Positions 9,573 to 19,618 of a stretch of 64,000 bases of DNA are shown here, piece by piece. The stretch's first letter is position 1; each line of letters begins with the position of its first letter. The DNA comes from Actinoplanes utahensis (lineage in GTDB: Bacteria > Actinomycetota > Actinomycetes > Mycobacteriales > Micromonosporaceae): the NCBI RefSeq assembly GCF_016862455.1, contig NZ_BOMZ01000090.1:1-64000 (forward strand), read 5' to 3'. The position numbers and the translations under genes were made by a program. Under the pieces are notes generated by a model. That model made no database searches. It saw only the letters and a list, made by a program, of their open reading frames with translations, and was not told the DNA's origin.

Positions 9573-12383
9573 TCACTCCTTGGCGGTGAGGAGCAGGAGT
9601 CGCTCCCGGGCGCGGGCGGCGTCCGGATGCTCGAGCGCGTCGAGGAGCCGCTGGGCGCGGGCGGCCGCCTCGACCGCGTCCGCGATCCGGCCCATCGCCT
9701 CCAGGGTGTCGGTGAGATGCAGCAGGGTATCGGCCTCGAAGTACCGGTCGTCCGCGCCGGCGTAGATCTCCACCGCCCGCCGGTAACAGCGCACGGCCTG
9801 CTCGTGGTCGCCGAGATGGTGGTGGGCCCATCCGAGACTGTCGGCCGCCGACGCCATCGCGCGGGCATCGCCGAGTTCCGCGGCCAGGTCGGCGGCCCGG
9901 GTGCAGAACTCCAGGGTGCGGTGGTACGCGCCGAGTTCGGCGTGGTACCAGCCGATCGAGTTGAGCGCGTTCGCCTGCCCGTACCGGTGATCTCCGGCCT
10001 GGAAGGCGGCGTAGGCGGTCCGCGCGTGCCCCAGGGCCCGCTCGTGGTCGCCGGTCTGCGCGGTGAGCTGGGCGAGCGTCATGCCGGTGTGGCCGAGGGC
10101 GATGTGGTCGCCGATCCGCCGGTTGAGGTCCAGCGCCGCGGTCAGGTGTTCGAGGGCCTCGGCCGGGCGGGCCTCACGGGCGGCGGCCAGCCCGATCAGG
10201 CGGTGCGCGCGGGCCTGGGCGGCGTGGTCCCCGAGCCGGGTCGCCGCCGCCAGGGCCTGTCGCTGGGTGGTGGCCATGTCGTGGTATCGGCGGCGCAGGT
10301 CGAGGAACCGGGCGAGCGCCCACGCCAGGTCGGCGACGCGGCGGTCCAGGCCGGCGGCCGCGGCGGTGTGGAAGATCTCCAGCAGCACGGCCTGTTCGGC
10401 GGAGAACCACGCGACCGCCGTGGCGCGGTCGTCGATCCGCTCCGGGCGTACCCCCGCCAGGTGTCGATCGGGATTCATCGGATCGCCGTGCGGGATCAGC
10501 GCCTCGGCGGCGGCGCACGCGGTGTGCAGGTAGTGGTCGGTGGCGCGGGCGACGGCGGCCCGGCGCTGCGGCTCCGGCTCCTGCTGCCGGGCAGTCTCCG
10601 CGGCGTAGGTGCGCAGCAGGTCGTGCATGCTGAACCGGCCCGGCAGGTGCTCGTCGGCGAATCCGGCGCGGACCAGCTCGGCCAGGCCCGCGTGGGCGTC
10701 GGCGGGCTCGATCGCGGCGAGGCTCGCGGCGGCGGCGACGGTGATGTCCGGTCCCGGATGCAGGCCGAGCAGCCGGACCAGTCGTTTCGTGTCGTCGGAC
10801 AGCACCCGGTAGGACGCCGAGAACACCGCCCGGACGTCGCTGGCGAGGTCCCCGACGGTCAGCGAGTCCAGCTCACCGGCCGCCAGGCCGGTGGCCAGCG
10901 CGCCCAGGGTCAGGTCCGGGTCGGCGGCGGCCCGCGCCGCGACGATCGACAGGGCCAGCGGCAACCCGGCGCACCGCCCCACGATCCGGTCGATCGCCGC
11001 CGGTTCCGCGTCGAGCCGGGCGTGGCCGATCCGCGCGGCCAGCAGCTCCCGGGAACCGGCCGGCCCGAACGGGGCGAGCGCCAGCAGCCGGGCGCCGTCG
11101 GTGGCGGCCAGGCCGGTGAGTCGGTCACGGCTGGTCACCAGGGCCATGCTGCCGGCCGAGCCGGGCAGCAGCGGGCGCACCTGGGCGGCGTCGCGGGCGT
11201 TGTCGAGCAGCACCAGCACCCGCCGCGAGGCGAGGATGCTGCGGTAGAGGCCGGCCTGGGCGTCGACGGTGTACGGCACCCGCTGCGCGGGCACACCGAG
11301 ACCGTCGAGCAGGGTCCGCAGCGCCTCGGACGGCGTCACCGGTGCGGCGACCGGGTCGAAGCCCTTCAGGTTGACGTAGAGCTGCCCGTCCGGGAACCGG
11401 GTCCGGGCCCGATGCGCCCAGTGCACGGCCAGGGCGGTCTTGCCGACCCCGGCGATGCCGCCGACGGCGGTGACCACCACGGGTACGGCGACCGCGTCCA
11501 CCGCCGGTGCGAGATCGTCGAGGCGGCGCAGGTCGTCGTCGCGCCCGGCCAGGTGGGGCAGCGGCGCCGGCAGTTGGGCCGGCACCGGCGCGGGCCGTGC
11601 CGCCGGCGCCGCGGCGGGGGCGGGGCCGTGCAGCGCGGGGTCGTCGGTGAGGATCGCCTTCTCCAGGCGGCGCAGCTCCTCGGACGGTTCCAGCCCGTCC
11701 TGCTCGGCGAACAGCCGCCGGGCCTGCCGGAAGTGGGCGAGCGCGTCGGAACGCCGGCCGGCCCGGTGCAGGGCCAGCATGTACAGGCCGCGCAGCCGCT
11801 CGTCGAACGGGTGCGCCTCGATCAGGGCGGCCAGCTCGTCCAGGACCGCGGTGTGCCGGCCGATCCGGATGTCGGCGTCGATGCGGTCGGCCAGCACGGC
11901 GATCCGCCGCCGCCGCAGCCGCTCCCGGTCGGCGTCCAGGGCCGCGGCCGGCACGTCCTCGAACGGCCGGCCGGAGAACAGCGCGACCGCCTCGTGCAGC
12001 AGGGCCGCGGCCTGGCGGTGGTCGCCGGTGGCGAGCAGGTCGCGTCCCCGGTCGGCGAGGCCGGTGAACCGCAGCAGGTCGAGTTCGCCGGCGCCGACCC
12101 GCAGGAGATAACCCGGCGACCGGTACGCCAGCCGGTCGTCGCCGGCGCCCGCCTCGGCCAGCACCCGCCGCAGCTGGGAGATGCGGACCTGCAGGGTGGA
12201 GCGGGCGTTGCGCGGCTGCCGGGACGCCCACAGCACCGCGGCCAGCCGGTCCGTGCCGACCACCCGGTTGGCGTGCAGCAGCAGGGTCGCGAGCAGAGCC
12301 GTGCGCTGACGGCCGCCGATCGGGACCGCGACGCCGCCGACGGTGACCTGCACCGGGCCGAGCAGGCGGAACTCGACAGCCAT
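9573..12383 (-). CDS. AfsR/SARP family transcriptional regulator (BTAD, NB-ARC, TPR)
   Basis: A 936-residue regulator. Residues 1-95 form an OmpR-like winged helix (EFRLLGPVQV...VGGRQ) and 100-245 the bacterial transcriptional activation domain. After a Pro/Ala linker comes an NB-ARC ATPase with Walker A GGIAGVGKT (308-316) and Walker B VLVLLDNA (389-396), and then about 300 residues of TPR-like helices up to the C-terminus. SARP proteins activate secondary-metabolite genes by binding direct repeats with an 11-bp period. It is divergent from a second SARP gene. The nearby cysteine-rich peptide operon is a plausible target because such repeats occur at 17621-17638, but this is inference. Confidence 0.92.
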   Translation of the reverse strand: MAVEFRLLGPVQVTVGGVAVPIGGRQRTALLATLLLHANRVVGTDRLAAVLWASRQPRNARSTLQVRISQLRRVLAEAGAGDDRLAYRSPGYLLRVGAGELDLLRFTGLADRGRDLLATGDHRQAAALLHEAVALFSGRPFEDVPAAALDADRERLRRRRIAVLADRIDADIRIGRHTAVLDELAALIEAHPFDERLRGLYMLALHRAGRRSDALAHFRQARRLFAEQDGLEPSEELRRLEKAILTDDPALHGPAPAAAPAARPAPVPAQLPAPLPHLAGRDDDLRRLDDLAPAVDAVAVPVVVTAVGGIAGVGKTALAVHWAHRARTRFPDGQLYVNLKGFDPVAAPVTPSEALRTLLDGLGVPAQRVPYTVDAQAGLYRSILASRRVLVLLDNARDAAQVRPLLPGSAGSMALVTSRDRLTGLAATDGARLLALAPFGPAGSRELLAARIGHARLDAEPAAIDRIVGRCAGLPLALSIVAARAAADPDLTLGALATGLAAGELDSLTVGDLASDVRAVFSASYRVLSDDTKRLVRLLGLHPGPDITVAAAASLAAIEPADAHAGLAELVRAGFADEHLPGRFSMHDLLRTYAAETARQQEPEPQRRAAVARATDHYLHTACAAAEALIPHGDPMNPDRHLAGVRPERIDDRATAVAWFSAEQAVLLEIFHTAAAAGLDRRVADLAWALARFLDLRRRYHDMATTQRQALAAATRLGDHAAQARAHRLIGLAAAREARPAEALEHLTAALDLNRRIGDHIALGHTGMTLAQLTAQTGDHERALGHARTAYAAFQAGDHRYGQANALNSIGWYHAELGAYHRTLEFCTRAADLAAELGDARAMASAADSLGWAHHHLGDHEQAVRCYRRAVEIYAGADDRYFEADTLLHLTDTLEAMGRIADAVEAAARAQRLLDALEHPDAARARERLLLLTAKE

Positions 12384-12533
12384 AGTTGATCAGTTTACAT
12401 ACGTCTCAATGTCAACATCCATTCAGGACCGTCCCAGCCTGCGGGAACGGCTCGGCGGGTAAGCGTGCGGTAAGCGGCCGCCCCGACCATGTCGATCGCT
12501 GGGCACGGCGACGGGGCGGGGGCTACGACGGTG

Positions 12534-14324
12534 ATGGTGTCGATCGGCTTGCTGGGACCACTGGACGTACGGCGGGGGACCGCGGCGATCCGGATGTCGG
12601 CGGGCAAACCACGGATCGTGCTGGCGTACCTGATCACACACGCGGGCCGGACCGTCACCGTCGACGACCTGACCACCGAGCTGTGGGCGGGCTCGCCGCC
12701 ACCGTCGGCGGTCGCCAACATCCGCACCTACATCGCCGGGCTGCGGCGTTCGCTGGGATCCACGCTGGCCGCGATCGTGGTCCACCCCAACGGCTACCGG
12801 CTGCAGCTCGCCGACGACTGCCGGCTCGACCTCGACGAGTTCCGGGCGCTCGTCGGGCGGGGCCGTGCCGACGCCGCGGGCGGGCAGCCGCACACCGCGA
12901 TCGGGCATCTCGACCGGGCGCTGGGGATCTGGCGCGGGTCGGCCCTCGAAGGGCTGCGGGACGGGCCGGTGCTGAGCACGTTCGCCGCCGTGCTGGAGGA
13001 GGAACGCGTCCAGGCGGTCGAGGAGGCCGTCGACGCCCGGCTGCGCGCCCGGCGGTTCGCTGAGGCGGTGCCGATGCTGCGCCGGCATCTCGAGGAGAAT
13101 CCGCTGCGCGAGCACGCGTACGCCCAGCTGATGACCGCGTTGTACCACTCCGGTGACGTGTCCGGCGCCCTGGCGGCCTTCGGGGCGGCCCGCGAGCAGC
13201 TGAGCACCCACCTCGGGATCGAGCCCGGCCGGGCCCTGAGCGGCCTGCACCTGGCGATCCTGGACCGCAGCCCGGTGCTGGACGCCGAACCGCGGGAGAC
13301 GAGCCGGATCACGGCCACGGAAACGCTCGTCACACCGTTCCTCACGCCGCCCGCGGTCGCCGGTTTCACCGGCCGGGACACCGAGACGGGGTACGCCGTA
13401 CGAGCGCTGACCGCCACGCCCCGCGACGCCCTTCCGATCGTGGCGGTGTCCGGGCTCGCCGGGTCCGGCAAGACCGCCCTCGCGGTGACCGTCGCGCACC
13501 GCGTCCGCGCCGCCTACCCCGACGGCCAGCTGTATGCCGACCTGCACGGCGACAGTCCCGATCCGGCGACGCCCGGCGAGGTGATCGGGCAGTTCCTGAC
13601 GGCGCTGGGCGTACCGGCCGCCCGGTTCCCGGACGGCCTGTCCGACCGCACCGGAATGCTGCGCAGCGCCCTCGCCGGCCGGCGGATCCTGATCGTGCTC
13701 GACAACGCGGCCGACGCCGCCCAGGTCCGTCCGTTGCTGCCGGGCGCCGCCGACTGCGGGGTGCTGGTGACCGGACGGTCCCGGCTGTGCGCCCTGGACG
13801 GCGCCCGGTTCATCGCCCTCGCCGGCCTGCCAGAACCGGCCGCGGTCGCCCTGTTCACCGAGGTCCTCGGCCGCCCGGCCGGCGCGGAGGAGGCCGCGGT
13901 CCGGGCGATCGTCCGGTCCTGCGACCGGCTGCCGCTGGCCGTCCGGATCGCCGCGGTACGGGCCGCCGGCCGGCCCGGGCGGCCGCTGGCCCTCCTGGCC
14001 GCCCTCCTGGCCGACGAGACCACCCGCCTGGACACGCTGCGGGCCGGTGACCTGGACGTCCGGGCCCGGCTCACCGGCGCCTACCGGTCGCTGCAGGCGC
14101 CCGACCGGCGACTGTTACGGCTGCTCAGCCTGCAGCCCGGCCCGGACGTGGCCGCCGGTGTCACCGACCGGCTGGACGCCCTGGTGGACGCCGGCTTCCT
14201 GACCGAGACCGGTCCGCAGCGCTACCGCGTCCACGGCCTGGTGCGCGCCCTGGCCCGGGAGTCGGCCGACGGGTCCTCCATCAGCCGGACCGCGATGCCC
14301 AGCACCCGGTCGGCCGGGAAGTAG
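12534..14324 (+). CDS. Second SARP family regulator (BTAD and NB-ARC, no TPR)
   Basis: A protein of about 596 residues if it starts at ATG 12534 (MVSIGLLGPLDV, the usual SARP N-terminus); an in-frame ATG at 12489 would add 15 residues but has no ribosome binding site. Counting from 12489, it has a winged helix, a BTAD domain, and an NB-ARC domain with Walker A GLAGSGKT (322-329) and LIVLDNA. It ends soon after the winged-helix part of NB-ARC, without the TPR array of its divergent neighbour. The last 100 bases overlap the signal peptidase gene on the other strand. The position next to the peptide operon suggests a pathway-specific activator. Confidence 0.88.
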   Translation: MVSIGLLGPLDVRRGTAAIRMSAGKPRIVLAYLITHAGRTVTVDDLTTELWAGSPPPSAVANIRTYIAGLRRSLGSTLAAIVVHPNGYRLQLADDCRLDLDEFRALVGRGRADAAGGQPHTAIGHLDRALGIWRGSALEGLRDGPVLSTFAAVLEEERVQAVEEAVDARLRARRFAEAVPMLRRHLEENPLREHAYAQLMTALYHSGDVSGALAAFGAAREQLSTHLGIEPGRALSGLHLAILDRSPVLDAEPRETSRITATETLVTPFLTPPAVAGFTGRDTETGYAVRALTATPRDALPIVAVSGLAGSGKTALAVTVAHRVRAAYPDGQLYADLHGDSPDPATPGEVIGQFLTALGVPAARFPDGLSDRTGMLRSALAGRRILIVLDNAADAAQVRPLLPGAADCGVLVTGRSRLCALDGARFIALAGLPEPAAVALFTEVLGRPAGAEEAAVRAIVRSCDRLPLAVRIAAVRAAGRPGRPLALLAALLADETTRLDTLRAGDLDVRARLTGAYRSLQAPDRRLLRLLSLQPGPDVAAGVTDRLDALVDAGFLTETGPQRYRVHGLVRALARESADGSSISRTAMPSTRSAGK

Positions 14325-14719
14325 CCCACCTGTTTCGAGTCGTAACTGATCTCGCCGGCGTCGCCGAGCAGCACCAGCGCACCGTCCGGCACGATCCGCT
14401 CCCCGGCGAGCGCGGGCACCCGGCCCTCCGGCACCGGCTCCCCGGCGACCGCGGCGACCCGTTTGATCAGCCAGCGGCGGCCGGAGATGCCCGCGGCCAG
14501 CGGGGTGGTCGTCCACGCGCCCTGCTCCGGGGCCTCGACGGCGACGACGTCCCCCGTCCGAATCGACGTCGTCGCCCGCCGCACCAGCACCCGGTCACCG
14601 GACCGGAACGCCGGCGCCATCGACGAACCGGTCACCCGGACCACCGCGTGCCGCCGCCGCGTCCACACCAGCACGGCCACGGCCACCGTGGCCGGAACCG
14701 TGAGCCACCAGAACGTCAC
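14222..14719 (-). CDS. S26 family signal peptidase of the Cys-rich peptide locus
   Basis: A 165-residue membrane-anchored serine peptidase. An N-terminal helix (about residues 3-19) is followed by the catalytic-serine motif GSSMAP (Ser33), the general-base Lys in RRWLIKRV (Lys86) and the conserved late box LLGDAGEISYDSKQVGYFP. This fits type I signal peptidases (S26), but the protein is shorter than the housekeeping enzyme. It is the last gene of a four-gene operon and overlaps the ABC transporter stop. I infer that it removes the leader of the 17743-17946 precursor after export. Its 3' end overlaps the SARP gene on the opposite strand. Confidence 0.88.
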   Translation of the reverse strand: MTFWWLTVPATVAVAVLVWTRRRHAVVRVTGSSMAPAFRSGDRVLVRRATTSIRTGDVVAVEAPEQGAWTTTPLAAGISGRRWLIKRVAAVAGEPVPEGRVPALAGERIVPDGALVLLGDAGEISYDSKQVGYFPADRVLGIAVRLMEDPSADSRARARTRPWTR

Positions 14720-16518
14720 CCCACCTCCACCTCCTCCCGGTAGCCGGCCGCCTGCAGCGCGAACAGCCGCGCGTACTCGCCGCCGGCCGCGACCAGCGCG
14801 TCATGGCCCCCGTGTTCGACGATCGTGCCGTCACCGAGCACGACGATCGTCTCCGCCTGGCGGATCGTGCTCATCCGGTGCGAGATCAGCAGGCTGGTCC
14901 GGCCCCGCCGGTGCTCACGCAGCCGCTCGTGCACCTGGAACTCGGCCTCGGCGTCCAGGCCGGCGCTCGGCTCGTCCAGGATCAGCAGGTCACCGTGGTC
15001 GCGCAGCAGCGCCCGGGCCAGCGCCACCCGCTGCCACTGCCCGCCGGACAGCACCACCCCGGTCCGGGGATCGTCACGGTCGGCGGCGTCCAGGAAGATC
15101 CGGGTCAGCAGGGTGTCGTAGCCGTGCGGCAGATCCCGCAGGAACGGGTCGCAGCCGGCCCGCCGCGCCGCCGCCGTGATCCGCTCGGCGTCCTCCAGGG
15201 CCGCGAGGTCACCGACCCCGATGTTCTCGGCCGCGCTCAACTCGTACTCCATGAAGTCCTGGAAGACGACCGCCAGCCGGCGGCGCAACTCGTCCACGTC
15301 GAACTCGCGCAGATCCACGCCGTCCCAGGTGATCGTGCCGCGGGACGGGTCGTAGAACCGGCACAGCAACTTCACCAGGGTGCTCTTCCCGGCCCCGTTC
15401 AGGCCGACCAGTGCGGTCGACCGGCCCGCCGCGATGGTCAGGTCGACACCGGCCAGCACCCACGGCAGATCCTCGCGGTAACGGAACCAGACATCCCGGA
15501 ACTCGATGCCGTGCCGCAGCTCCGGCACCGCCACGGTCCGGCCGGTCGGCGACGGCTGCAGATCCGGGCCGGTGTCCACGACCGCGCAGTAATGACCGAA
15601 CATCAGCAGCGCGTGATGGCCCATCCCGGCCGAGCTGAACACCGCCGCCAGCGCGCCCTGCACCCCGGCGACCGCCGCGACGAACACCGCCACGTCCCCG
15701 ACACTGAGCCGGCCCTGCCGCGCGGCCACCACCGCCCACACCAGGCCGCCCCCGGCGATCACCGCGCCGGTCACCGCCAGCAGCGCCTGCGCCCGCAACT
15801 CCCGCCGGTCCGCGCCGCGCTGCCCGGCGTCGATCGCCCGCAACTCGGTCAGCATCCGCCCCCGGAACAGGCTGCCCAGACCGAAGAGCCGAACCTCCTT
15901 GATCGCCCGTACGCTCGTCAGAAGGCCCGCATAGAAGATCTCCCGGCGGCCCGCCGCGCTGAGGTCCCAGCTCACCCGGGCCCGGTCGCGGCTCATGTTC
16001 AGCTCCGCCCACAGGGTCGGCGCGGACCCGGCGACCACCACCAGCGCCATCCACGGATTGAGCATCGCCAGGGTGCCCAGAAAACCGGCGATCGTCAGCA
16101 CGCCCTGCCCGGCGCCGAGAACACTGCTCACCAGGTCGGCCGGACCGCTGGTGCCGTGGGCCGCCATCCGCAGCCGGTCGTGGAAGGCCGCGTCCTCGAA
16201 CCGGGCCAGCCCCGCCAGCCGGCCGATCGCCCCGAACAGCCGATCCTTCGCCGACAGCGTGACGGACCGGCCGATCTGGGCGTCGACGTACCCGTTGACC
16301 TGCGGCAACATCGCCGCCGCCACCCCGGCGAACGCGAGCGTGAGCGCGGGGCCCAGCAGCGGCGCCGCCGGGTCCCCGATCCGGTCCAGCACCGTCCGGG
16401 TCAGCCAGGCCAGCGCCACCGGGATCAGACCGGCCGCCACCACCAGCACGATCCGGGCCAGCAGCCGGACCGGCGAGACCCGCCAGACGTAGCGCAGGGC
16501 CTGCAGCGTCAGCCTCAT
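14716..16518 (-). CDS. ABC exporter, fused membrane and ATPase domains
   Basis: A 600-residue half-transporter; the start at ATG 16518 overlaps the upstream stop (ATGA). About five to six membrane segments occupy residues 1-300. The nucleotide-binding domain has Walker A GLNGAGKST (372-380), signature LSGGQ (490-494), Walker B LLILDEP (511-517) and the switch His in ISHR. It has no N-terminal C39 peptidase, unlike bacteriocin PCAT exporters, which fits the separate S26 peptidase encoded next to it. The predicted role is export of the cysteine-rich precursor as a homodimer. The open frame continues upstream into the neighbouring genes, but the real start is set by the overlap and the family N-terminus. 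Confidence 0.9.
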   Translation of the reverse strand: MRLTLQALRYVWRVSPVRLLARIVLVVAAGLIPVALAWLTRTVLDRIGDPAAPLLGPALTLAFAGVAAAMLPQVNGYVDAQIGRSVTLSAKDRLFGAIGRLAGLARFEDAAFHDRLRMAAHGTSGPADLVSSVLGAGQGVLTIAGFLGTLAMLNPWMALVVVAGSAPTLWAELNMSRDRARVSWDLSAAGRREIFYAGLLTSVRAIKEVRLFGLGSLFRGRMLTELRAIDAGQRGADRRELRAQALLAVTGAVIAGGGLVWAVVAARQGRLSVGDVAVFVAAVAGVQGALAAVFSSAGMGHHALLMFGHYCAVVDTGPDLQPSPTGRTVAVPELRHGIEFRDVWFRYREDLPWVLAGVDLTIAAGRSTALVGLNGAGKSTLVKLLCRFYDPSRGTITWDGVDLREFDVDELRRRLAVVFQDFMEYELSAAENIGVGDLAALEDAERITAAARRAGCDPFLRDLPHGYDTLLTRIFLDAADRDDPRTGVVLSGGQWQRVALARALLRDHGDLLILDEPSAGLDAEAEFQVHERLREHRRGRTSLLISHRMSTIRQAETIVVLGDGTIVEHGGHDALVAAGGEYARLFALQAAGYREEVEVG

Positions 16519-17063
16519 GCCGCGGCGGGAACCGGCAGCTCGGTCATCACCAGGCTGCTCGCCGCCACCGTGCCGTCCGGGTCGACCAGCAGGAACGACG
16601 GGAACCCGCGGATCGCGAACGCGTCCGCCACCGCACCGTCGGACGCCTCCTGCACCACCCGCGCGACCGGCGACAGCTCGGCCACCAGCGGCTCCGCCCG
16701 ATCCGGTTTCCCGACCACCACGGCCAGGACCCGGGACGGGTCGGCGAGGTCGTTCGCGTACGCCAGGAACGACGGCATCCGCTCCTCGCACGCCGAGCAA
16801 CCGGGGGAGAAGAACCCGACCAGCGTCTGCCCGGTGAACGAGGCCAGGGAGACCGCCCCGCCGTCGTTCGCGGTCGCCTCGAACGGGGCCGCCACCTGCC
16901 CGGCGGCGAGCATCAGCGGGCCGTCCGGGCCGTGCGCGTCCGCGGCCTGCCGGGCCAGCAGCTCGGAGTGCTTGCGCAGCCGCCGGATCACGCCGAAGGA
17001 CAGCAGAAGGTTGACGATGCCGAGCAACCCGGCGAGGGTGACGGCGGCTGCCAGATAGGACAT
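16515..17063 (-). CDS. TlpA/MauD-like membrane-anchored thioredoxin
   Basis: A 182-residue protein with one N-terminal helix (residues 3-25) and an extracytoplasmic thioredoxin-fold domain of the TlpA/peroxiredoxin class. The redox pair is Cys89 and Cys92 in SPGCSACEE, and the cis-proline region is IRGFPSFLLVDPDG. TlpA/MauD-type proteins handle disulfides in exported proteins. Together with the MauE-like protein encoded just upstream, this mirrors mauE-mauD, which is needed for the disulfide-rich small subunit of methylamine dehydrogenase. Here the obvious client is the eight-cysteine peptide. The stop overlaps the ABC gene start. Confidence 0.9.
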   Translation of the reverse strand: MSYLAAAVTLAGLLGIVNLLLSFGVIRRLRKHSELLARQAADAHGPDGPLMLAAGQVAAPFEATANDGGAVSLASFTGQTLVGFFSPGCSACEERMPSFLAYANDLADPSRVLAVVVGKPDRAEPLVAELSPVARVVQEASDGAVADAFAIRGFPSFLLVDPDGTVAASSLVMTELPVPAAA

Positions 17064-17075
17064 GATTCTCCTTGT

Positions 17076-17579
17076 TCAGGCCGTGATCAGGTGGGCGATC
17101 TCGTCGAGATTGATGAGCAGCAGGGCGGCTACCGCGCCCGCCGCGACGGCCAGCACGACCACCGGGCCGGGCTGGTCCGCCGGCGCCCCGGCGAGACCGA
17201 GCAGCGCGGTCGCGAGCAGCAGCACGTTGCGGACCACGGCGGCCCGGCCCGGCGGGGCCGACGTCGCGCCGAAACAGCGGCACGGCTCGGTCGAGCCGCG
17301 GCGCCGCATCACCACGATCGCCCCGGTGAACGCCGCCAGCAGCAGCGCCGCCAGACCGAACCCCCACCGGGCGGTGACCGGCACCGCGACCGCCGCCGCC
17401 ACCGTCACCTCCGCGCCCACCACCGTCACGGCGAGTGGCCCGGCCAGCGTTTCCGGGACCGGCAGGCCGCGCGACAGCGACAGCCGGAACTCCCGGAATC
17501 CGGCCGGCCGCAGTTTTCCGCCCGCAGCCACGACGAACGTCACCACCAGTAATGCCTGGCAGGCCACCGACCAGTCCAC
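17076..17579 (-). CDS. MauE/DoxX-like redox-associated membrane protein
   Basis: A 167-residue polytopic protein with about four membrane helices. The family hallmark is a Cys-x-Cys motif in EPCRCFGA (Cys100, Cys102) at a membrane boundary. MauE-type proteins are thought to pass electrons between the membrane and a partner thioredoxin. It is the first gene of the operon, separated from the TlpA-like gene by 12 bases, and its start faces the precursor gene across a 163-base divergent promoter region. The pairing with a TlpA-like protein and a secreted Cys-rich peptide supports a role in forming or shuffling disulfides. Confidence 0.85.
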   Translation of the reverse strand: MDWSVACQALLVVTFVVAAGGKLRPAGFREFRLSLSRGLPVPETLAGPLAVTVVGAEVTVAAAVAVPVTARWGFGLAALLLAAFTGAIVVMRRRGSTEPCRCFGATSAPPGRAAVVRNVLLLATALLGLAGAPADQPGPVVVLAVAAGAVAALLLINLDEIAHLITA

Positions 17580-17620
17580 GACGAGCTCCCTTCGAGGAGT
17601 CCGACCGTAGGTCCGCGGGA

Positions 17621-17638
17621 TACAGCCGGCCTACAGCC
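17621..17638. promoter_or_regulatory. SARP-type direct heptamer repeat in the divergent promoter of the peptide locus
   Basis: TACAGCC occurs at 17621-17627 and again at 17632-17638, separated by GGCC, giving an exact 11-bp period. This geometry (7 + 4 + 7) is the known layout of SARP binding sites. On the minus strand a -10-like TACGGT (17609-17604) lies downstream towards the MauE operon. On the plus strand TAGGTT (17683-17688) could be the -10 of the precursor gene. An inverted-like copy, GCCTGTA, lies near 17665. Two SARP genes lie 3-8 kb away. Binding is inferred. Confidence 0.5.
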
Positions 17639-17742
17639 GCCGCGATGTATCGAGCACGTACGCCGCCTGTAGCGGTCCGGCCTAGGTTCGGCTGGCCGCA
17701 GACGACTGCGGTGCGTGATCGCAACTCGACACGAGGAGAACC

Positions 17743-17946
17743 ATGCGCCGAATCAGCACCCTCGCCGACCGCCTGCTCGCCCGCTTCGTACCCGAGGTCG
17801 AGGCCGCCGCGGCCTGCACCCCGGGGCAGTTCTGGGGCTTCTGCTACTGCAACGCCGACGGCGTCCTGCGCTGCCGCAGCTGCCAGCGGCTCGCCAGCTG
17901 CGACGACCGCTGCTCCAGCACGTACACCAAGGTCGGCCTCTGCTGA
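17743..17946 (+). CDS. Precursor of a secreted eight-cysteine peptide (putative RiPP/bacteriocin)
   Basis: A 67-residue protein from ATG 17743 with GAGGAG four bases upstream. Residues 1-24 form an amphipathic leader (ISTLADRLLARFVPEVE) ending in four alanines, an AxA-type cleavage site. All eight cysteines (25, 34, 36, 44, 47, 53, 57, 67) lie in the following 43 residues, which also have aromatic and basic residues (FWGFCYC, LRCRSCQRL). The last residue is Cys. The even number of cysteines suggests four disulfides. It is divergent from an operon encoding MauE-like, TlpA-like, ABC exporter and S26 peptidase proteins, and is followed by a strong terminator. There is no lanthipeptide, lasso or radical-SAM enzyme nearby. 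Activity is unknown. Confidence 0.82.
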   Translation: MRRISTLADRLLARFVPEVEAAAACTPGQFWGFCYCNADGVLRCRSCQRLASCDDRCSSTYTKVGLC

Positions 17947-17960
17947 TCTGACCCCCCAGC

Positions 17961-17999
17961 AACCGCGGCGGACACGGGCGCCCCGTGTCCGCCGCGGTT
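17961..17999 (+). terminator. Strong hairpin terminator after the peptide precursor gene
   Basis: A perfect 18-bp inverted repeat (17961-17978 with 17982-17999) around a 3-base loop, beginning AACCGCGGCGG and ending in GGTT plus one further T. It starts 15 bases after the precursor stop. It makes the precursor a single-gene transcript, as expected for a highly expressed small peptide. Confidence 0.85.
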
Positions 18000-18139: not shown

Positions 18140-19618
18140 ATGCGCATCAATCGTCACCGGAGAGCCGCCGGGGCCGCCGCGGTCGCCACGGCACTCGCTC
18201 TCGTCGCCGCCCAGCCGTCGCCGGCCGCCGCGCACACCGTCGCGCCCGACGCCGTGTTCGCCAAGATCCTGGTGAAGCAGGTCACCGGCGCGCACGCCAA
18301 GAAGCACCTGGACGCGCTGCAGGCGATCGCCACCGCCCACGGCGGCAACCGCGCGGCCGGGACACCCGGCTACGACGCCTCCCGCGACTACGTCGCCGAC
18401 AAGCTGCGCCGAGCCGGTTACCAGGTCACGCTCGACCCGATCGACTTCGTCCGGGACTGGACGGAGAACAACCCGCCCACGCTGAACCTGACCGCCCCCG
18501 GCGGCAAGGTGTACGTGCCGAACCAGGACTTCCTCACCTTCCAGCCGTCACCGCCCGGCGACGTGACGGCACAGGTGCAGGCGGTCGACCTCACGCTGCC
18601 GCCCACCCCGGCGCCGACCTCCACGAGCGGTTGCGAGACCAGCGACTTCGACGGCTTCGTCGCCGGGCGGATCGCGCTCATCCAGCGCGGCACGTGCGGG
18701 TTCGCGACCAAGGTGCGCAACGCCGGGTTCGCCGGGGCCTCCGGGATCATCGTCTTCAACGAGGGGCAGCCCGGCCGGACCGACGCCTACCCGCTCGACA
18801 TCGGCGAATGGCGGGCCGCGATCCCGATGGTCTTCGCCGACTTCGCCGTCGGCAACGAGCTCGCCGCCACACCCGGCGCCACCGTCCGGCTCAAGGTCGA
18901 CGCCACCCTGACGCTCGGCACCAACCACAACGTGATCGCCGAGACCCGGTTCGGCAACCCGAACAACGTCGTGATGGCCGGCGCCCACCTCGACAGCGTC
19001 CCCGAGGGCCCCGGCATCAACGACAACGGCTCCGGCACCGCCGCGGTCCTCGAGACCGCCCTGCAGATGCGGCACTTCCCGGTCCGCAACAAGGTCCGCT
19101 TCGCCTTCTGGGCGGCCGAGGAGATCGGGCTGCTCGGCTCCGACCAGTACGTCGAGGAACTGACCACGGCCCAGCGGGACCGGATCAAGCTGTACCTGAA
19201 CTTCGACATGGTCGCCTCACCCAACTACGCCTACAAGCTGTACGACGGCGACGACTCCGACGCGACCGGCTCACCGGCCGGCCCGCCCGGCTCCGCCCAG
19301 ATCGAGAAGCAGCTGGCCGCCTTCTTCGACGCGCGCGGCCTCGGCCACGTCGGCGCCGACTTCGACGGCCGCTCCGACTACGGCCCGTTCATCGCCGTGG
19401 GAATCCCGGCCGGCGGCGTCTTCACCGGCGCTGAAGGCATCAAGACCCCGGAGGAGCAGGCCCTGTTCGGCGGGACCGCGGGCGCCTCCTACGACGGCTG
19501 CTACCACCAGGCCTGCGACACCATCGGCAACGTCGACCTGACCGCCTTCGACGTCAACGCCGACGCCATCGCCGACTCGGTGGCCCGGTTCGCCTTCGAC
19601 ACCACCGCCATCCCCTGA
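18140..19618 (+). CDS. Secreted M28 family zinc aminopeptidase with PA domain
   Basis: A 492-residue protein from ATG 18140 behind GGGGGG. It has a signal peptide of about 34 residues (ending SPAAAHT). Residues about 145-240 form a protease-associated domain with a disulfide pair (SGCETSDF, RGTCGFATK). The catalytic M28 domain shows the zinc ligands in order: GAHLDSV (His283), GINDNGSGTA (Asp), AEEIGLLGS (Glu-Glu), NFDM and a final His in CYHQACDT. It resembles the Streptomyces griseus aminopeptidase class, releasing N-terminal hydrophobic residues outside the cell. It may simply be a nutrient-acquisition enzyme; a link to the peptide locus upstream is not shown. Confidence 0.92.
   Translation: MRINRHRRAAGAAAVATALALVAAQPSPAAAHTVAPDAVFAKILVKQVTGAHAKKHLDALQAIATAHGGNRAAGTPGYDASRDYVADKLRRAGYQVTLDPIDFVRDWTENNPPTLNLTAPGGKVYVPNQDFLTFQPSPPGDVTAQVQAVDLTLPPTPAPTSTSGCETSDFDGFVAGRIALIQRGTCGFATKVRNAGFAGASGIIVFNEGQPGRTDAYPLDIGEWRAAIPMVFADFAVGNELAATPGATVRLKVDATLTLGTNHNVIAETRFGNPNNVVMAGAHLDSVPEGPGINDNGSGTAAVLETALQMRHFPVRNKVRFAFWAAEEIGLLGSDQYVEELTTAQRDRIKLYLNFDMVASPNYAYKLYDGDDSDATGSPAGPPGSAQIEKQLAAFFDARGLGHVGADFDGRSDYGPFIAVGIPAGGVFTGAEGIKTPEEQALFGGTAGASYDGCYHQACDTIGNVDLTAFDVNADAIADSVARFAFDTTAIP

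Follow-up and report, generated by a model that had tools for sequence, protein, structure and literature searches.

Does the short cysteine-rich gene at one locus of Actinoplanes utahensis encode the substrate of the membrane-protein genes beside it, and, if so, on which side of the membrane is its product matured? The locus lies in a window of 64,000 nucleotides (positions 1–64,000 of contig NZ_BOMZ01000090.1, forward strand; the whole stretch of DNA that was analysed), in which the precursor gene is divergent from a four-gene minus-strand unit encoding a MauE-family protein, a TlpA/MauD-like thioredoxin, an ATP-binding cassette (ABC) exporter and an S26-family peptidase. We conclude that the system is real, widespread and uncharacterised, although its kind has been glimpsed before, and we hold the system itself, the order of its steps left aside, with high confidence. 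As an overall explanation, we lean slightly towards a leader/core peptide system with maturation at the inner membrane face before ABC export. The five genes are:

17743–17946, plus strand: cysteine-rich precursor gene (ATG after GAGGAG; 67 amino acids; leader, residues 1–23, ending in EAAA).
17076–17579, minus strand: MauE-family membrane protein with a CRCF motif (PF07291, 92.4 bits; cut-off, 27).
16515–17063, minus strand: TlpA/MauD-like membrane-anchored thioredoxin with a CSAC motif and RRLRKH after the transmembrane (TM) segment (AhpC-TSA, 39.3 bits; cut-off, 26).
14716–16518, minus strand: ABC exporter with a TM domain and an ATPase (ABC_tran, 101.4 bits).
14222–14719, minus strand: S26-family peptidase with one N-terminal TM segment and a Ser/Lys dyad (TIGR02227, 59.3 bits, cut-off 47; PF10502, 66 bits).

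In the sequence, the TlpA/ABC and ABC/S26 gene pairs each overlap by 4 bases and a 12-base gap separates the MauE and TlpA genes. The precursor gene has a GC content at third codon positions of 0.97, and all eight cysteines of its product lie in residues 25–67. The predicted mature peptide comprises residues 24–67 (44 amino acids with eight cysteines), or 43 amino acids if cleaved one residue further on. Its calculated monoisotopic mass is 4835.02 Da with four disulfides and 4843.08 Da when reduced; for residues 25–67 the value is 4763.98 Da. The S26 peptidase carries its catalytic serine in SMAP and its lysine in IKR; for the MauE family, five TM segments are the usual count. No C39 peptidase domain was present in the Pfam list for the exporter, and no lanthipeptide enzyme or other enzyme modifying a ribosomally synthesized and post-translationally modified peptide (RiPP) was found among the precursor, its four partners and the four neighbours scanned (9.5–21 kb). 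The original prediction, made from the letters of the DNA, had described a 67-residue precursor with eight cysteines in its last 43 residues, an operon of MauE, TlpA, an ABC exporter without its own peptidase and an S26 peptidase, and no lanthipeptide, lasso or radical-SAM enzyme; the sequence bears out the precursor and the operon, and the scanned genes contained no such modifying enzyme. Searched by sequence against Pfam, NCBIfam and the PDB, the precursor had no match, and the single-sequence fold model examined for a defensin-type csalpha-beta fold was poor (pLDDT 59.8; best PDB fold match, E = 1.4).

Linkage was measured from both ends of the locus. Loci were fetched around ABC matches and around precursor matches (profile built from 58 precursors), and a partner was counted if it lay within 4.5 kb. 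The ABC-anchored set comprised 69 Micromonosporaceae loci (6 of which had been fetched for their precursor), and the precursor-anchored set comprised 40 loci from 26 genomes outside Micromonosporaceae, fetched by precursor alone; in one of the latter (L272), a stricter model finds no precursor or partners, and this probably false match was left in the denominator. Near the 69 ABC genes we found S26 in 63 cases, TlpA in 63, a precursor in 59, MauE in 44 and a SARP-type gene in 41; once the six loci fetched by precursor are set aside, a precursor lies near the ABC gene in 53 of 63. The 40 precursor-anchored loci gave a precursor in 39, S26 and TlpA in 38 each, ABC and MauE in 37 each, and SARP in 16. 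The same models, run on 61 unrelated ABC loci of at least 12 kb (mixed phyla, 34 actinobacterial by record title; from at least 77 mostly generic ABC loci), found no precursor, TlpA, S26 or MauE, one SARP and three ABC-model matches. Each of the four partners thus lies near 37–38 of the 40 precursor-anchored loci. Homologous operons usually carry a cysteine-rich gene and its frame is conserved—the reverse, on both counts, of what the original prediction had named as grounds for abandoning it—and the linkage and the conserved frame together support its idea that a cysteine-rich peptide, made with a leader and probably modified by disulfides only, has a system dedicated to it.

The system is common and spread across families. 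Among 200 sampled Micromonosporaceae genomes, 41 had a precursor-like match at E ≤ 0.01 and 83 had an ABC match at E ≤ 1e-100. Across the class, the 58-precursor profile matches 27 of 394 genomes from several families (the genome of origin counted, and the probably false L272 included). It also matches 6 of 25 named genomes (Catellatospora coxensis, Streptosporangium canum, Allokutzneria sp. NRRL B-24872, Streptomyces sp. S.PNR 29, S. ardesiacus and S. caelestis); TlpA and ABC genes occur within the same 14-kb stretch in six of the seven loci of these genomes, the S. ardesiacus locus having neither. The A. utahensis genome itself holds three such loci, one of them without MauE. A scan of genome contigs with the window precursor confirmed no relative: the core varies too much to be caught by short exact patterns. 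Twelve Micromonosporaceae loci fetched for precursor matches away from ABC matches had no ABC gene nearby, so exporters may serve precursors in trans. Orphan precursors (including L098–L104, L109 and L111–L113) reach six to eight matches per genome in three genomes, with the exporter locus elsewhere in the genome.

The precursors join, in a short gene, a conserved leader to a variable core and are linked to dedicated maturation and export genes, as is typical of RiPPs. We collected 126 precursors (including four, with no start codon in range, that were entered manually) and chose 77 representatives below 50% core identity. The leader, of about 23 residues, follows the consensus MxRxxxxLxDRLLxxxVPxxxAxA, and the information per column (58 rows) is 2.43 bits in the leader, 3.31 at core cysteines and 1.25 at other core positions; in close pairs, pN/pS is 0.29 for the leader and 0.46 for the core. 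The cores of the representatives span 33–77 residues (median, 44), have a median net charge of +2, contain 17% cysteine and are rich in glycine and tyrosine. At least eight cysteines are present in 77 of the 126 precursors. The cysteine number is even in 119 of the 126 and in 71 of the 77 representatives (binomial P = 1.7e-15); of the seven precursors with an odd count, one (L251) has its extra cysteine in the leader. Aligned core cysteines were kept without exception (438 of 438) in 55 overlapping pairs at 60–99% identity. This combination of parity, full retention and variability elsewhere would be expected of a disulfide scaffold whose loops change; on an enzyme-installed modification, parity and retention bear indirectly. 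Judged from its relatives, the locus is more than a product of chance, with frame, leader and cysteines under selection. Compared with Pfam and NCBIfam, the 58 precursors gave no match above chance (best E, 0.04–0.1). Cysteine frameworks vary, and the order C-C-CC-C-C is present in 5 of the 77 representatives; cores of this kind (L249, L253 and L256–L259) come from one other family of the class. The order is that of knottins, and order alone is no proof of a knot.

An AxA motif lies within residues 15–32 in 121 of the 126 precursors. The maximum leader hydropathy over 10 residues has a family median of 1.20 (window precursor, 1.00), and by this measure alone no Sec-type hydrophobic core was found. 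A Sec-exported class II bacteriocin was set aside on the same hydropathy, the signal-peptide core being absent; a double-glycine/PCAT bacteriocin was set aside on the Pfam list, which has no C39 domain, and on a leader that ends in AxA rather than GG/GA. The leader resembles the pro-peptide of nickel superoxide dismutase (Ni-SOD), which in the A. utahensis genome reads MRLPRFLTPRTVVSA before HCDLPCG (L315). When Ni-SOD junctions were scored with a position matrix made from the precursor leaders, 23 of 24 exceeded the 99th percentile of a background of 764 other N-termini (6 of 30 loci without the exact motif HCD[LM]PCGVYDP were left out). An S26-like frame, by eye mostly without a TM segment, occurs in 28 of the 30 fetched SodN stretches; the Ni-SOD maturation protease works in the cytoplasm. 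The system's own S26 proteins carry SMxP in 102 of 103 cases and KR in all 103. By curated score and Ser/Lys dyad, the window peptidase fits signal peptidase I (TIGR02227), and its best NCBIfam models are TIGR02227 followed by TIGR02754 (Ni-SOD maturation protease). We read it as probably treating a leader of Ni-SOD type as a Ni-SOD protease would, yet do not class it as one.

The membrane side was approached through the charges flanking TM segments, with one start rule for all proteins (nearest start, repeated with the longest frame) and proteins without a clear TM segment omitted. The gene calls used here, as well as those behind the Ni-SOD background, the neighbour clusters and the LepB/thioredoxin control, were crude and came from our own script. 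With the nearest start, the flank after the TM segment was positive in 98 of 104 TlpA proteins (none reverse) and 86 of 100 S26 proteins (9 reverse), compared with 10 of 65 (45 reverse) among the other single-TM proteins encoded at these loci. Taking the longest frame gave 83 of 104, 63 of 100 and 9 of 68, respectively. Five proteins of the hosts' own, two LepB and three secreted thioredoxins, showed the inward pattern in no case; that is, they pointed outside. The window MauE belongs to its family by PF07291 score and by a CxC motif, which is present in 81 of 82 MauE proteins of the system; the CxC loop lies on the side rich in lysine and arginine (K/R) in 79 of 81 (mean K/R, 12.5 versus 1.8). 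By the positive-inside rule, these charges suggest that the active sites of TlpA, MauE and S26 face the cytoplasm, S26 least firmly.

From these patterns we propose a pathway. A SARP-type regulator would control the system. The amphipathic leader (LxDRLLxxxVPxxxAxA), probably no Sec signal, would work in the manner of a Ni-SOD pro-peptide, and the dedicated S26 peptidase would cut it after AxA. TlpA (CxxC) would oxidise the core thiols and the electrons would be passed on by MauE (CxC), yielding a predicted two to six disulfides across the family and four in the window peptide. Cleavage and oxidation would most likely take place at the inner membrane face before the ABC exporter sends the peptide out. 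This order is favoured by the leader without a Sec-like core, by its Ni-SOD likeness and by the inverted flank charges, and we regard it as evenly poised between right and wrong. The full picture—an actinobacterial peptide class processed at the cytoplasmic face, with an inverted S26 acting on a Ni-SOD-type leader, inward MauE/TlpA oxidation and then ABC export—is tentative and may fall a little short of that balance. Most likely the product is secreted and has an antagonistic, bacteriocin-like role, as suggested by cores that are mostly cationic, hypervariable and often SARP-linked.

The original prediction had the steps the other way round: the ABC transporter exports the leader-bearing precursor, and S26 cleavage and TlpA/MauE oxidation follow on the outer face, as in BdbB-type systems and with signal peptidases. 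Known S26 signal peptidases and TlpA/ResA proteins do act outside, AxA suits type I cleavage and, among curated models, that of signal peptidase I comes nearest to the S26 peptidase. Against that order stand the hydropathy of the leader, which shows no Sec-like core, its Ni-SOD pro-peptide pattern and the charges beside the TM segments of TlpA, S26 and MauE, inverted relative to the controls; we consider the outer-face order possible, with a smaller share of the probability than the inner-face one. The same cytoplasm-facing charges would also suit a reductive or isomerase pair that keeps or corrects the core until export, with disulfides then forming spontaneously outside; the cytoplasm is normally reducing, and MauE is absent near 25 of 69 operons. 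Cysteine parity and retention fit built-in pairing, though they are silent on where it occurs, and a role for MauE in making the disulfides of methylamine dehydrogenase has been the subject of speculation (PMC7794033, citing van der Palen 1997); we regard the reductive or isomerase pair as unlikely. The core thiols could also bind or buffer a metal, as in bufferins, instead of forming a disulfide scaffold, as its 17% cysteine and a leader like that of a metalloenzyme would allow. The linked thiol-oxidation genes and the strong even-cysteine bias make this very unlikely, as does the lack of a recurrent further enzyme cluster (MNIO was not searched by model); the accessible part of the bufferin/MNIO text names DoxX, not MauE, and other partners (PMC12452194). 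Least probable of all is a chance neighbourhood, in which the operon would act on some other exported protein and the small gene would have no part in it. Ten of the 69 Micromonosporaceae operons do lack a nearby precursor, and four of these are ATP-grasp peptide loci that share an ATP-grasp gene and another small partner gene (ATP-grasp model run on one of the four). Searches made with the precursor alone outside Micromonosporaceae nonetheless return the operon at 37–38 of 40 loci, a linkage that contradicts an incidental gene, and for five of the six other precursor-less operons the genome has a precursor match elsewhere.

Several points weigh against the proposed pathway. Disulfides, cleavage and activity are predicted here from gene sequences, and the loci are relatives rather than independent draws. 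MauE is missing from more than a third of the Micromonosporaceae operons, as counted above. The most frequent other gene clusters reached no more than 8 of 121 loci (enzymes that diverge may have been divided among several smaller clusters), so neither a modifying enzyme nor an immunity gene is seen to recur, and the missing immunity gene weakens the bacteriocin reading. For the leader, the P(−7) register was partly imposed in choosing 113 of 122 15-mers, the other 9 precursors could not be set in it, the SodN sequences are related to one another and the top score in the background of 764 N-termini (7.7) lies above most SodN junctions. For the peptidase, the window S26 passes the signal peptidase I cut-off and not that of TIGR02754 (36 bits; cut-off, 63.25), all six system S26 proteins tested match both models, and a model of the system S26 is about equally close to LepB (51 bits) and SodX (37–53 bits). 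The S26 charge bias is weaker with the longest frame (24 of 100 reverse). Finally, the one mau-type pair read, a MauE and a MauD-like protein from Pseudomonas insulae (L346), has the same charge pattern (CxC side, 10 K/R versus 3). Since methylamine dehydrogenase is periplasmic, the mau proteins too must act on the inner side, or else the positive-inside rule is misleading in this case, which may also speak for the outer-face order; it is for this reason that we keep inner-face maturation at no better than an even balance and outside maturation as a substantial, less probable alternative. The L346 pattern also raises the question of where the disulfides of methylamine dehydrogenase are made.

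Four further features surround the locus:

12489–14324, plus strand: AfsR/SARP-type regulator (Trans_reg_C, BTAD and NB-ARC), convergent with S26, the 3′ ends overlapping.
9573–12383, minus strand: second AfsR/SARP-type regulator, a possible partner (BTAD, NB-ARC and TPR).
17580–17742, no strand: divergent intergenic region of 163 bp, with an imperfect inverted repeat (17621–17634 and 17658–17671; 12 of 14).
18141–19618, plus strand: PA-domain M28 peptidase gene directly downstream of the precursor, outside the recurrent-neighbour set.

The AfsR/SARP-type regulator is a recurrent partner type that lay outside the coordinates of the original prediction. The inverted repeat (17621–17671) may be a regulator site; it is the best of all pairs tried in the intergenic region, its arms match at 12 of 14 positions and the chance level was not computed. 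No match to a sigma-70-like promoter was found in 17580–17742. Elsewhere, the four ATP-grasp loci (L056, L059, L060 and L063) combine the same ABC exporter and an ATP-grasp gene (MvdD-like model, run on L056) with small precursors that have cysteine-containing tails, and three of the four have MauE and TlpA; the oxidation/export cassette seems to be shared with another RiPP type. An FtsX-like permease gene of about 935 amino acids (Pfam run on L096) lies near the operon in 6 of 121 loci (among them L096, L106 and L110) and is a possible self-protection or sensing part.

The leader model and partner genes provide a searchable signature for a large, hypervariable set of cysteine-rich peptides that Pfam and NCBIfam miss and that spans Micromonosporaceae, Streptosporangium, Allokutzneria, Streptomyces and others. 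They point to an untapped pool of bacteriocin-like peptides, tie a peptide leader to a metalloenzyme pro-peptide and pose a clear test of where MauE/MauD-type oxidation occurs, which bears on methylamine dehydrogenase too. If the inner-face order is true, the system would show a mesophile making disulfides inside the cell with natural machinery of its own, and would be a natural source of cytoplasmic disulfide-forming enzymes. The cores with the knottin order invite structure work.

The system shares parts with several known ones. As in the Ni-SOD pro-peptide and its S26-type protease (PF09055 and TIGR02754), a short leader that carries P at −7 and has small residues in positions −3 and −1 is followed by a cysteine-containing mature N-terminus, and an S26-like frame lies near SodN; SodN, however, is a metalloenzyme, most SodX proteins are by eye without a TM segment and the window S26 scores below the TIGR02754 cut-off. 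Methylamine dehydrogenase maturation likewise places a MauE-family protein (92.4 bits in the window) beside a MauD-like thioredoxin, whereas here the substrate is a peptide, an ABC exporter and S26 share the operon and no other mau gene is present among the scanned neighbours. NHLP and Nif11 leader peptides are RiPP leaders related to enzymes; the present leader likewise resembles part of a metalloenzyme, but it is the Ni-SOD pro-peptide that it resembles, and no modifying enzyme recurs. The defensin-like bacteriocins actifensin and the laterosporulins are also leader-bearing cysteine-rich peptides with ABC transporter genes and several paralogues, actifensin in an actinobacterial host. The actifensin locus differs in its subtilisin-like protease, LuxR regulator and GA-type cleavage motif, and the accessible part of that paper does not mention ‘peptidase’ or ‘thioredoxin’ (PMC6989792).

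The nearest precedent is decRiPPter. Among open PMC papers, preprints excluded, we found no characterisation of the system and no mention of a Ni-SOD link, none joining Ni-SOD with a leader peptide and a bacteriocin, and MauE together with a RiPP only in the decRiPPter paper (PMC7794033). That 2020 work reported three candidate RiPP families in Streptomyces that contain mauE and, in one case, mauD as well; the predicted precursor of every family has at least eight cysteines; its strict filter required transporter, peptidase and regulator genes, and its authors proposed that the mauE/mauD proteins modify the precursor (PMC7794033). The statement in the original prediction that it knew of no described family with this gene set holds in part: mauE/mauD candidates were already listed in Streptomyces, whereas the accessible part of the paper presents them as candidates only, without characterisation and without a leader family, a Ni-SOD link or an analysis of parity or topology (PMC7794033). 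The window shares with them a mauE homologue (PF07291) and a precursor with eight cysteines. The match to these families is clear in kind, the comparison being with the published description, and Streptomyces also carry the present family, as they do the decRiPPter candidates.

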